Below are positions 57,327 through 61,635 of a DNA stretch of 64,000 bases, one piece after another (position 1 is the first letter of the stretch; the number at the start of each line of letters is the position of its first letter). Source of the stretch: Thermococcus stetteri (lineage in GTDB: Archaea > Methanobacteriota_B > Thermococci > Thermococcales > Thermococcaceae); the NCBI RefSeq assembly GCF_017873335.1, contig NZ_JAGGKB010000004.1, positions 62,001 through 126,000 on the forward strand. Direction: 5' to 3'. The notes beneath the pieces are model-generated. The model saw only the letters and a list, made by a program, of their open reading frames with translations, was not told the origin of the DNA and did not search any database. Both the position numbers and the translations under genes were made by a program.

Positions 57327-59039
57327 ATGAGTGAGTTTAAGGGGGAAGTTTCCATCGTCTTGGGCGGAGCGGCCGGACAGGGCATTCAGACCGTCGAGGA
57401 AATCCTGACCAATGCCCTCAAGAAGTCCGGCTACCACGTCTATGCGAACAAGGAGTACATGTCCCGCATCAGGGGCGGGATAAACACGACCGAGATTAGA
57501 GTTTCTTCGAGGCGCGTCAGGGCCTTCATAAAGAGGATAGACATCCTCGTGCCCTTCAAGAAAGGCACCCTCAGCTGGGTGAAGGACAGGCTCGGCGAGA
57601 ACACCGTAGTTCTGGGAGAAAAAGAGAACGTCGAGGAGGAGTTTTTGGGCAAGGTCAACCTCGTTGAGGTTCCGCTCACGAAGATGGCGATGGAAGTGGG
57701 GAGCCAGCTCTATCTCAACACGACGGCGGCTGGCCTGATAGTCGGCCTCTTCCACGGCGACTTTGGTGCCGTCGAGGAGTACATAAGGAAGCGCTTCGGG
57801 AGCAAAGGCGAGAACGTGGTCAAGAAGAACATCGAGGCAGCCAAGAAGGGCTACGAGCTGGGTATTAAGCTCTGCGAGGAAGGGACGATAAGGGTTGAAG
57901 TCGAGAGGGACGAGAAAGTCCGTGAAGAGGTTCTCCTCACAGGAACGGAGGCCGTAGGGATAGGAGCCTTCGCCGGAGGAATGAACTTCCTGAGCTTCTA
58001 CCCGATGAGCCCGTCAACGGGAGTCTCCACCTTCGCCGCCCAGCACGCCGAGGAGTTTGAAATAGTTGTCGAGCAGGTCGAGGACGAGATTTCAGCCATA
58101 AACATGGCGCTTGGAGCGTGGTTCGCCGGGGCGAGGGCCATGGTGAGCACTTCCGGTGGCGGCTTCGCATTGATGAGTGAGGCGATAAGCTTAGCGGGAA
58201 TGGCCGAGAACCCGGTGGTGATTCACCTCGCCCAGAGGCCTGGACCGGCTACCGGTTTGCCGACGAGGACTATGCAGGGCGACCTAAACCTGGTTCTCTA
58301 CGCCGGCCATGGAGATTTCCCTAGGATAATTCTGGCACCGGGAAGCCTTGAGGAGGCCTTCTACCTCACTGCTGAAGCATTCAACTTGGCTGACAAATAT
58401 CAGGTTCCGGTGATAATCCTCACCGACCAGTACTTCGTTGACACCTACTACAACCTTCCTGCCCCGGACGTGGAGAAGGTGCGCTTTGAGAGGCACATCG
58501 TCGAGGCGAAGCCCGGATACAGGAGGTACGAGCTGACCGAAGATGGAATCTCGCCGAGGGCCGTTCCGGGCTACGGCGAGGAAGTTGTGGTTGCGAACGG
58601 CAACGAGCACGACGAGTGGGGAGACATCACCGAGGATGCCGAGCTTACCGTAAAGATGCAGGAGAAGAGGGCAATCAAAAAGCTCGAGACGATAAAGAAG
58701 GACGCTCCTCTGCCGAAGCTGATAGGCAAAGAGGACGCAAAGTACCTCGTCATAGCCTGGGGTTCAACGCTCCACGTCGTTGAAGAGGCAATCGAGAAGC
58801 TCGGAAGGGAGGACGTTGCCCTGCTCCACTTCAGCTGGGTCTACCCGCTCAACCCGAAGGTGAGGGAGTTCTTCGAGGACAAAGTCCTCATCGATGTGGA
58901 GAACAACATAACCGGCCAGTTCGCTGAGCTCCTCAAAAAAGAGTTCGGCGTTGAGGTACATCATAAGATTCTGAAGTACGACGGGAGGCCCTTCTCTGTT
59001 GAAGAGGTTCTTGAGGGCCTCAAGGGGGTGGTAGAATGA
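57327..59039 (+). CDS. 2-oxoacid:ferredoxin oxidoreductase, fused gamma-alpha subunit
   Basis: A 570-residue subunit. Residues 1-190 are the gamma domain ([37 protein letters not shown]). Residues 200-570 are the alpha domain with the TPP pyrimidine region: [55 protein letters not shown] and [17 protein letters not shown]. It decarboxylates a 2-oxoacid to the acyl-CoA and reduces ferredoxin. The two-gene form resembles 2-oxoglutarate-type (Kor) enzymes, but the substrate is unproven. It has a leader ORF ahead and overlaps the beta gene by ATGA. Confidence 0.92.
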
Positions 59040-59920
59040 ACGTTCAGCTTCCGACCGGGAGAGAGCTCTTCGAGCCGAAGAGGCCCGGGAGCCAGGACAT
59101 CGCCTGGTGCCCTGGATGTGGAAACTTCGGCATAAGGAACATTCTCATCTCTGCCCTGGCCGAGCTCAACCTCAAGCCCAACCAGGTTGCCATCATCAGC
59201 GGCATCGGTCAGGCAGCAAAGATGCCGCACTACATCAACGCCAACGGCTACCACACGCTCCACGGAAGGGCAATCCCGATAGCGACTGGAGTTAAGGCGG
59301 CAAATCCAGAGCTTACGGTCATAGCCGAGGGCGGAGACGGCGATATGTACGCCGAGGGTGGAAACCACCTGCTCCACGCCATCAGGAGGAACCCGGACAT
59401 AACGGTCCTCATCCACGACAACCAGATCTACGGTCTCACGAAGGGGCAGGCATCGCCGACGACGATGAAGGGCGTGAAGACGCCAACGCAGCCTTGGGGA
59501 GTGTTTGAAGAACCTTTCAACCCGGTTGCCCTCGGGGTTGCCCTGGACGCTTCCTTCGTGGCGAGAACCTTCATGGGCTACTTCAAGGAGAGCGTGGAGA
59601 TAATCAAGAAAGCCATCAAGCACAAGGGTCTGGCCATAGTGGACATCCTGCACCCCTGTGTGAGCTTCAACAAGGTCAACACCTACGCCTGGTACAGGGA
59701 GCACACCTACTGGATGGAAGACCACGACCCCTACGACAGGGAGGCCGCCTTCAGGAGGGCAATCGAGAGCGACCCGATACCGCTCGGAATCTTTTACATC
59801 AACGAGAAGCCCACCTTCGAGGAGATGGTTCCTGCTTACAGGAAGGACAAAACTCCCCTCTGGAAGAGGGAGCCTAAGCTCGACCTCGTGGAGAAGTTCT
59901 TCGAGGAGAGGAAGCTTTGA
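59036..59920 (+). CDS. 2-oxoacid:ferredoxin oxidoreductase beta subunit
   Basis: A 294-residue subunit binding TPP and a 4Fe-4S cluster. CPGCGNFG near residue 25 gives two cluster cysteines. The TPP-Mg motif is [19 protein letters not shown]...[14 protein letters not shown], and a further Cys is in [10 protein letters not shown]. It pairs with the fused gamma-alpha subunit from the overlapping gene before it. No separate delta ferredoxin subunit is present. The operon ends with a T-rich terminator after 59936. Confidence 0.93.
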
Positions 59921-60071: not shown

Positions 60072-60209
60072 TTAGGAACCACTAACATTCTTTCCTCCAT
60101 CCGTTCTTTCATAAACCTTCTCGATAACCTTGGCCAACTCGGGCATGAAGTCGTCGAAGGTCTTGTATTTATCCCTGTGCTTCATGTAGTCGTTCACATA
60201 GGCGTTCTG
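60072..60209 (-). pseudogene. C-terminal fragment of an unknown protein, cut by the IS605-like element
   Basis: On the minus strand a frame enters from the element border at about 60209 and reads NAYVNDYMKHRDKYKTF then DDFMPELAKVIEKVYERTDG to a stop at 60072. The 45 residues show good codon use and helical character, but no start codon with a ribosome binding site is present. It looks like the tail of a gene whose front has been lost where the mobile element joins. I do not recognise the family. Confidence 0.55.
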
Positions 60210-60605
60210 ACCTCCTTCCCGCCTTGAAGGGCGAGGGTTCCAGCGAATTAACCCCTCGCCAGCGGGCGGTTCGGTTTACGGGCACTCACTCATTTCCTAC
60301 TCCTGTTGCCGGTTTCGGCTCGGCCCGAGGGCACGGTCTTGTGCCCGTTACCCCTACCGGCCAAAGCCGGATTGGGGTTATCGCTTAGAGACCGAACTCC
60401 AGTTTTTGACTGCCCAAACAGGCAGTATTTCGAAGGACGCCTGCCAGCCCGCAGGAGGACACGATGAAACCCCTCATCTCATCGGGTTGTTTTGAGTGGT
60501 CTCTTCGAGACCCTTACTAAACTCCAAAAGTTTAAAAGGGTTTTGACTGTTGAAAGGCTGTTGGGCGGTTTACTGTATCCCCGCCCTAAAGGGCGAGGCT
60601 TTCAG
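60209..60605 (-). mobile_element. tnpA/tnpB-less IS200/IS605-like element (MITE) rich in hairpins
   Basis: About 400 bp with no gene. Both ends have subterminal palindromes of the IS605 kind. At the right on the plus strand, ccccgccctaaagggcgagg (60579-60598) has perfect CGCCCT/AGGGCG arms. At the left, cccgccttgaagggcgaggg (60218-60237) is the imperfect counterpart. Read on the minus strand the left end gives CTCGCCCTTCAAGGCGGGAA then GGAGGTC, the form seen at right ends of TnpB elements in Thermococcales. The inner part has many hairpins: GGGCAC/GTGCCC, CCGGC/GCCGG, ACTGCC/GGCAGT, CCTGC/GCAGG, GGTCTC/GAGACC. It may keep the scaffold of the TnpB guide RNA without TnpB. Confidence 0.6.
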
Positions 60606-60615
60606 AAGAAAAAAG

Positions 60616-61635
60616 TCAGATATTCTCTCTCAGGTCAATGACGTGCTCCAGCTCCGGTCCCGTCTTTATCAGCCCCACGGGAACCCCAACTCTGTCCTCT
60701 ACTTCCTCAACGAACTCCTTCGCTTTCTTTGGAAGCCTATCGTAGTCGGTAACTCCGAAGGCGTCCTTGTCGTACTTGTCGAGCATCGTCAGAGCGAGCA
60801 TGGTGGCCCCGTTCAGCTTGGCCGAGTAGCGGGCGAACTCGAAGTCGAACCAGCCAACCCTTCTCCTTCTGCCCGTAACAGTCCCGTACTCAACGAGGCC
60901 GAGCCTTTCGGCCTCTTCCTGGCTCATCTCGGTCGGGAAGGGTCCGGCCCCAACCCTCGTTGGGAAGCTCTTGAAGACGACGATGACGTCATCGATCCGG
61001 GTTGGACCGACTCCAACGTCGCTCGCTATCGCAGATGCTGTCGTGTCCTTTGATGTGACGTAGGGGTAAGTCCCGTAGTAGAGGCTCAGTCCGAAGCCCT
61101 GAGTTCCTTCTATGAGGACCAGCTTACCTTCATCTAGGGCATCGTTGATCTCCTCGGCAACATCCGTCAGGTACGGCTCAAGCTCTTTGATGTCCTTCGC
61201 AAGCTTTGCCCTTCTCATGACCCTATCGGCGTTCGCCGGCCCGCAACCGCTCCCGGTAGTTCCGATTTCTTCGTGCAGGTGATGGTTGCTCCTGTCAAGT
61301 TGCTTGTGTGCCTCCTCGATTATAGCACAGCGGTAGTCTATTCCAACCCTCTTGGCAACGTTGAAGTCCTTTAGGTGCTCAAGCTCGTGAAAGAAGACCT
61401 CAGGGTCAACGAGAACGCCAGCACCGACGAGAAGCCTTGCCCTAGTCTGCATGAAGCCAGTCGGAAGCTGTCTCACCGCGTATTTCTTTCCATTTATGAA
61501 AACGCTGTGGCCGGCGTTCGTTCCGACGCCGCCGCGGGCTATTACCTCCGGCTCATCCTTGAGGGCAAGGTAAGCTATAATAGAACCCTTGCCCTCGTCT
61601 CCCCATTGACCGCCAACGACGATGTAGCTCGGCAT
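60616..61635 (-). CDS. purA: Adenylosuccinate synthetase PurA
   Basis: PurA makes adenylosuccinate from IMP, aspartate and GTP on the way to AMP. The 339-residue product is the short archaeal form: [19 protein letters not shown] with the phosphate loop, [48 protein letters not shown], and [14 protein letters not shown]. It starts at ATG 61635; a TATA-like cattataaac at about 61669-61678 precedes it. The poly-T run just after its stop is a likely terminator. Confidence 0.96.

Follow-up and report, generated by a model that had tools for sequence, protein, structure and literature searches.

The window, by which we mean the whole 64,000-nucleotide stretch of Thermococcus stetteri DNA analyzed here, carries a 408-bp segment that is a non-autonomous IS200/IS605 element without a protein gene and probably with a guide-RNA gene. 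We observed its anatomy, its homology to tnpB 3′ ends, its conserved structure and its mobility. Beyond this, we put at about three in four the probability that this PATE carries an ωRNA gene, would be moved in trans by TnpA and would be kept in place by a TnpB that cuts unoccupied alleles. With ten copies in the genome, about 70 full-length copies in the family and empty sites in relatives, the element is not a chance arrangement. A first-pass annotation of this DNA had described a tnpB-less IS605-like element that may keep a guide-RNA scaffold; the observation is confirmed and the interpretation supported, while its mobilization in trans and the use of its RNA by TnpB from another locus are steps that we infer.

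A protein-free IS200/IS605 element adjoins purA

The ends of the element were fixed by aligning the ten copies of its own genome, which have unrelated flanks, and by the empty sites of sister copies in relatives (Table 1). The feature had previously been placed at 60072-60605; positions 60072-60206 turned out to be what is left of a host gene, and the earlier left boundary fell about 9 bp short. The remark that some 400 bp hold no protein gene was borne out, 60207-60614 being free of protein genes. Transposase genes are thus absent, as in a non-autonomous element, and no tRNA was found nearby. The IS605-type palindromes reported near both ends are present, each inside a 26-nt direct repeat (85% identical). 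They are near-terminal palindromes rather than terminal inverted repeats and are common to autonomous IS605 elements. On the minus strand, the terminal bases (...GGCGGGAAGGAGGTCAG) form the right end that also follows about a dozen tnpB genes or tnpB remnants in the genome; the first-pass annotation had noted their likeness to right ends behind TnpB genes. At its other end, the element adjoins the purA stop codon.

Table 1. Features of the element and its surroundings (positions in the window)
Feature	Position	Strand	Remarks
Complete tnpA/tnpB-free IS200/IS605-type element (PATE)	60207-60614	minus	408 bp; left end 60614, right end 60207
Left-end near-terminal palindrome	60579-60598	minus	CCTCGCCCTTTAGGGCGGGG; left-end consensus shared by TnpA+TnpB elements of G076
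Right-end hairpin/near-terminal palindrome	60218-60236	minus	
Target site/transposon-adjacent motif position	60615-60619	minus	CTGAC here; overlaps purA stop codon
Promoter motif	60530-60545	minus	BRE CAAAAC 60545-60540; TATA-like box TTTTAAAC 60537-60530; predicted transcription start near 60510
Element-specific 5′ RNA domain	60409-60513	minus	Hairpins 60498-60513, 60467-60489, 60409-60426; covarying pairs, e.g. columns 224-237 (UA 36/CG 25)
ωRNA scaffold core	60207-60381	minus	P1 60348-60381; P2 60329-60346; P3 about 60279-60328; right-end hairpin 60218-60236; terminal AGGAGGTCAG
Presumed guide segment, 20 nt	60187-60206	minus	AACGCCTATGTGAACGACTA; DUF4932 gene sequence; position by analogy with TnpB ωRNAs
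C-terminal remnant of DUF4932 (PF16286) gene	60072-60206	minus	Upstream half flanks another copy (G000:C6:40482)
purA	60616-61635	minus	Name from reading of translation
porB	59036-59920		Beyond DUF4932 remnant; name from reading of translation

Insertion is precise and copies have recombined

In 52 of 69 copies the left end directly follows TTAC, and the empty sites of sister copies rejoin at one base; insertion thus takes place 3′ of a short fixed target, which is not duplicated. The empty site of copy c06 in the relative G028, for instance, runs uninterrupted from ...TTAC into TCGGGG.... Outside the right end, each copy is followed by a different sequence, after a nearly invariant GTCAG.

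The window copy is flanked on its left by CTGAC, not TTAC, a flank that was acquired through recombination. Its right flank and the left flank of copy L002 (c02, G000:C6:40482-40879) are the two halves of one DUF4932 gene. This gene is contiguous in five relatives, and in G044 the junction of GTTTAC with AACGCC is exact; in G028, the DUF4932 gene is next to porB, and about 175 kb separate them from purA. One element therefore inserted after TTTAC, and later recombination between two copies exchanged their flanks. This explains the remnant of a broken gene that had been noted just outside the right end: the gene is indeed broken, with the refinement that its left half was split off by recombination with another copy. 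Because the halves were separated in this way, the original target of the window copy is not found in one piece in its own genome. By comparison with relatives, in which purA and porB lie far apart, recombination between the window copy and L002 has rearranged the chromosome.

Two other copies have unusual flanks. L004 (c04, G000:C2:78593-78984) stands in place of a 41-bp segment of its counterpart L191; the last bases of this segment, immediately ahead of the insertion point, are TTAC, as though the element had inserted and a short stretch between TTAC motifs had been lost in one event. In G040, the sequences that match the left and the right flank of L010 (c10, G000:C2:355299-355696) lie on different contigs, which may reflect a second rearrangement mediated by these elements.

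Copies form an old tnpB-less lineage in Thermococcales

The host genome (2.03 Mb, 7 contigs) holds ten copies, spread over all contigs but one: the window copy, eight with 85-96% identity to it and one with 75%. They have a common start and stop, unrelated flanks and invariably the right end AGGAGGTCAG, and they have diverged from one another by several percent. About a dozen further sites match the last 53-59 nt only, and nearly all of these are the 3′ ends of tnpB genes or remnants; in intact tnpB copies of this genome, the stop codon lies 41 nt before the right end.

Matches to the element were found in 78 of 94 Thermococcales genomes. We counted 70 full-length loci in 27 genomes, the ten own copies included, most foreign ones being 66-79% identical to the window copy; since copies were located by similarity to the window copy, diverged classes are missed, and full-length copies occur in at least 27 genomes. 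Of the 70 loci, 69 were aligned. The named GTDB collection yielded loci from MAGs only, and the viral contigs searched yielded none.

Autonomous elements encoding TnpA (153 aa) and TnpB (438 aa) between the same left and right ends occur in sister genomes, and those of G076 show 0 mismatches to the consensus search patterns of both ends. The first-pass annotation had made its reading depend on related ends lying beside tnpB in Thermococcales, and they do, both at about a dozen loci of this genome and in these complete elements of a sister genus. Behind the strongest PF07282 matches of other genomes, this right end was almost never found; these mostly belong to different TnpB subfamilies, with many members of 394 aa and with ends of another kind, and our tnpB comparison is limited to the related subfamily. 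The best E-value of the element and the number of tnpB genes are correlated across 74 well-assembled genomes (rho 0.76), which fits a dependence on TnpB and may only reflect a common IS load.

In a tree of scaffold cores (recombinant L104 left out), tnpB-less and tnpB-linked sequences are split by one branch with support 100/99. The tnpB-less copies thus form a single clade and an old lineage, not a product of fresh decay. The interior of P3 and the first hairpin are specific to each class. None of the ten own copies holds a remnant of tnpA or tnpB; a few distant copies retain a short 3′ piece of tnpB, which fits an origin from a tnpB 3′ end. We also considered the window copy as a fresh deletion derivative of a tnpB element, and rejected this for its separate clade and the absence of a tnpB remnant.

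Scaffolds have also been exchanged between the classes. L244 (G008:C1:954900-957300) is a decayed, frameshifted tnpB element with the P3 of the tnpB-less class, a natural scaffold chimera, and L104 is the reverse chimera. Both suggest that scaffold modules are interchangeable.

TnpB proteins are available in trans

Three tnpB genes of the related subfamily have open frames of 445-455 codons (stop to stop) in this genome, in addition to truncated and contig-end copies; one tnpB copy has its right end at G000:C5:132868 and another lies at G000:C1:124235. All three nearly full-length proteins, and also truncated copies, carry the RuvC D-E-D motifs GIDLG, EAFTSQTC and NADLVGA. The Glu of EAFTSQTC lies six residues before the zinc finger, the “alternative E” position described in PMC10711439. 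On these motifs, an active site in the three proteins is plausible. The Thermococcales IS605 TnpBs of the related subfamily, at L253-L260 and related loci, have DLG as well as this RuvC-II Glu in its alternative position (ExxxxxxC ahead of the zinc finger); discussion of such a combination has otherwise concerned IS607 TnpBs and Fanzors.

The sole Y1 TnpA of this genome (L257, G000:C4:56800-60300) is frameshifted, and its tnpB is fragmented; its right end is of the same type. With no other TnpA, the copies may no longer be mobile here. As it encodes no protein, the element probably relies on proteins from related elements elsewhere in the genome. The broken TnpA, together with the divergence of several percent among copies, would also suit a dead relic, which once worked with TnpA and TnpB and is now inert in this strain. 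Such a history would overlap with our preferred reading, which concerns the element as a kind, and we regard it as rather doubtful: apart from a deletion in L009, a short way downstream of the promoter motif, all ten copies have kept promoter, scaffold and right end; the genome still encodes three nearly full-length TnpBs; and RNA-guided retention would not need TnpA.

The element carries a conserved ωRNA-type scaffold and a promoter-like motif

We compared the tnpB-less and tnpB-linked ends with covariance models, whose E-values are rough. Model R1, built from 22 tnpB-linked 3′ ends only, finds 60207-60372 with 97.8 bits (E 9e-30), the next match in the 64-kb window reaching 7.6 bits. Model R2, built from tnpB-less elements of other genomes only, retrieves every tnpB end of the related subfamily with 85-131 bits, and the decayed TnpA locus with 53 bits. 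Both sets of scores owe something to the last 56 nt, which are nearly identical and which transposition by itself would preserve; stems P1-P3 are not part of this stretch. The element therefore has a scaffold homologous to tnpB 3′ ends that stops at the right end, as in ωRNAs. The proposal that a guide-RNA scaffold has been kept holds in sequence and structure alike, through these models and through covarying pairs.

The internal hairpins seen by the first-pass annotation are real and are conserved with covariation in the 69 copies, with double-sided changes in 32 of 60 predicted pairs. Like ωRNAs, the element thus has a secondary structure supported by covariation. When both classes were aligned jointly (alignment A4), P1-P3 were paired in nearly every sequence (96.9% paired; score 0.292 versus 0.084 ± 0.010 for shuffled alignments and at most 0.083 for slid ones). 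In P2, pairs 65-76, 66-75 and 67-74 have changed on both sides in many rows, and in P3, pairs 81-136 (C-G versus A-U) and 85-132 (C-G versus G-C) show compensatory swaps between the classes with zero unpaired rows. Non-Watson-Crick cells in the internal stems of this strand are G-T rather than A-C by 171 to 64 (24 pairs versus 9, p = 0.014). This excess is expected if this strand is the RNA; both the asymmetry and the hairpins could partly reflect selection on the single DNA strand that is transposed. The minimum-free-energy fold of the window RNA alone is mildly better than that of shuffles (z = -2.0), so the structural claim rests on covariation and not on energy.

Upstream of the structured part, a BRE/TATA-like motif is common to all copies (69/69), the AAA of the BRE and one T of the TATA-like box being invariant. 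The TATA box lies 23 bp from the start of transcription in T. kodakarensis (PMC4247193). With this spacing, transcription is predicted to start near 60510, at the first hairpin, and to give an RNA of about 300 nt plus guide (about 320 nt). Within the 5′ domain, 60467-60513 contains a conserved stretch, CAACCCGATGAGATGAGGGGTTT, that is also recognizable in the HgcC consensus; its role is possibly TnpB binding, L7Ae-like binding or stability.

TnpA recognizes hairpins near both ends of IS200/IS605 elements, and the hairpins and right end could have been retained solely for its needs in single-stranded DNA. The element would then be a pure MITE/PATE whose RNA-like structure is a leftover of a tnpB-bearing ancestor, and PATEs have been published as transposase-free mobile repeats without an RNA role (PMC3119063). 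We find this unlikely. P2 and P3 are far from the ends, yet their pairing is kept with compensatory swaps relative to tnpB scaffolds; the invariant promoter-like motif has no known role in transposition; leftovers should have decayed in so old a lineage; and the chimeras have swapped the scaffold domain itself.

A model for RNA-guided retention in trans and its known counterparts

In our model of an ωRNA-encoding PATE, TnpA of another element would move the PATE in trans by peel-and-paste. Its own promoter would drive an RNA of about 320 nt that starts near 60510 and ends in host sequence just outside the right end. A TnpB encoded elsewhere would trim and bind this RNA, and would then cut chromosomes that have TTAC and the guide-matching sequence and lack the element. 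Repair from an occupied copy would restore the element, which would thereby maintain and multiply itself, riding on TnpB with nothing but an RNA.

A broader possibility, which we advance tentatively, is that Thermococcales harbor an ancient, self-standing lineage of protein-free guide-RNA transposons that parasitize, or arm, TnpB in trans, with their own promoter, a 5′ RNA domain and a diverged scaffold. In some genomes tnpB-less guides at least equal tnpB-linked ones in number, and TnpB would be a shared nuclease with a genome-wide repertoire of guides, some of them maybe adopted by the host.

Taken with its predicted RNA, the element appears to be a protein-free archaeal counterpart of the fungal “ghost” guide-RNA loci, which are the direct precedent for an ωRNA that serves a nuclease encoded at another locus. 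At the ghost Spu-1 loci of Spizellomyces punctatus, transposon ends and an ωRNA likewise occur without a nuclease gene, in conserved elements of about 550 nt, and a ghost scaffold works with the Fanzor protein of another locus in human cells (PMC10432273). Ghost loci outnumber nuclease genes, and their scaffold differs from the linked one in one stem (PMC10432273). Unlike our element, Spu-1 is eukaryotic, bounded by inverted repeats and associated with Fanzor1; the element is archaeal and IS605-type, with palindromic ends, TTAC, a TnpB that combines DLG with the repositioned Glu, its own BRE/TATA and family-wide conservation.

In prokaryotes, the PATEs of Haloquadratum walsbyi set the precedent for the DNA architecture and resemble the element in being transposase-free, in having near-terminal palindromes common with IS605-type transposons, in inserting without target duplication and in their many copies; they are mobile although nearly all TnpA genes are broken (PMC3119063). 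Their description predates the knowledge of guide RNAs, and the parts of their account available to us contain no analysis of an RNA scaffold, promoter or covariation (PMC3119063). A PATE-like element of Halanaerobium hydrogeniformans (271 nt) retains a left-end hairpin together with 58 nt from the end of tnpB and all 160 nt of the right end (PMC7290912). It is a single copy and apparently a simple internal deletion, whereas the window element belongs to an old, diversified lineage with its own 5′ domain. Protein-free PATEs are also said to have been described among Geobacillus IS605 elements by Meers and colleagues (Nature, 2023).

Should TnpB use the RNA in trans, the smallest selfish element of this kind would be about 400 bp of DNA with a guide RNA as its sole product. 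Prokaryotes would then provide a case of nuclease use in trans, as has been proposed for Fanzor ghost loci, and this would explain how an old protein-free lineage persists in many genomes. The copies would also be a natural source of alternative scaffolds for nucleases that are both compact and heat-stable.

HgcC RNAs resemble TnpB ωRNAs

At gathering scores, no Rfam family matches the element. Below threshold, it matches HgcC (RF00062; 25.9 bits, threshold 50) and sot0042 (RF02656; 17.9 bits, threshold 88). The tnpB 3′ ends of the genome score better with both, again below threshold (HgcC 33-45 bits, sot0042 35-51 bits). The first-pass annotation would have been contradicted by a match to an unrelated RNA family; these weak matches are to related RNAs. 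A sub-threshold match of the Mo/W riboswitch to tnpB ends was rejected as a chance match of similar hairpins. The family sot0042 is a haloarchaeal sotRNA, now called a TnpB ωRNA (PMC12558985). TnpB ωRNAs and sotRNAs (RF02656, RF02657) have the right-end scaffold position and the common core of the element; sotRNAs are linked to tnpB, and the tnpB-less class differs in the interior of P3 and in the first hairpin.

Like the element, HgcC has the 3′ end AGGAGGUCAG followed by unconserved sequence. HgcC also coincides with tnpB 3′ ends (L210, L213, L216, L205 and the tnpB ends of this genome). By sequence, the HgcC RNAs of hyperthermophiles are most likely TnpB ωRNAs; a search of mainly open-access literature found no paper calling HgcC an ωRNA. 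It is suggested, then, that these long-unexplained RNAs are TnpB guide RNAs. Conversely, the weak HgcC match and the transcription of two T. kodakarensis HgcC RNAs unlinked to a transposase gene (PMC4247193) could make the element a stand-alone, host-used small RNA that regulates genes beside incidental IS ends, which is highly improbable, as ten precise-ended copies at unrelated sites and empty sites in relatives mark a mobile element and HgcC, matching tnpB 3′ ends best, is more likely an ωRNA than an independent regulator.

A genetically tractable species in which to look for such RNAs is T. kodakarensis, where one (HgcC4) seems to be expressed. We take G024 to be the KOD1 chromosome of this species. 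RNAs of the tnpB type lie in it at 251, 425 and 743 kb, in agreement with HgcC1-3 in TK0298, TK0495 and TK0850. It has one strong tnpB-less-type RNA, at 1,474 kb (1,474,313-1,474,475), in a truncated copy without tnpB. Going by the spacing of gene numbers only, this RNA is probably HgcC4 (TK1679); simple interpolation would place TK1679 nearer 1,504 kb, which makes the assignment less than certain. HgcC4 is transcribed and is not linked to a transposase gene (PMC4247193).
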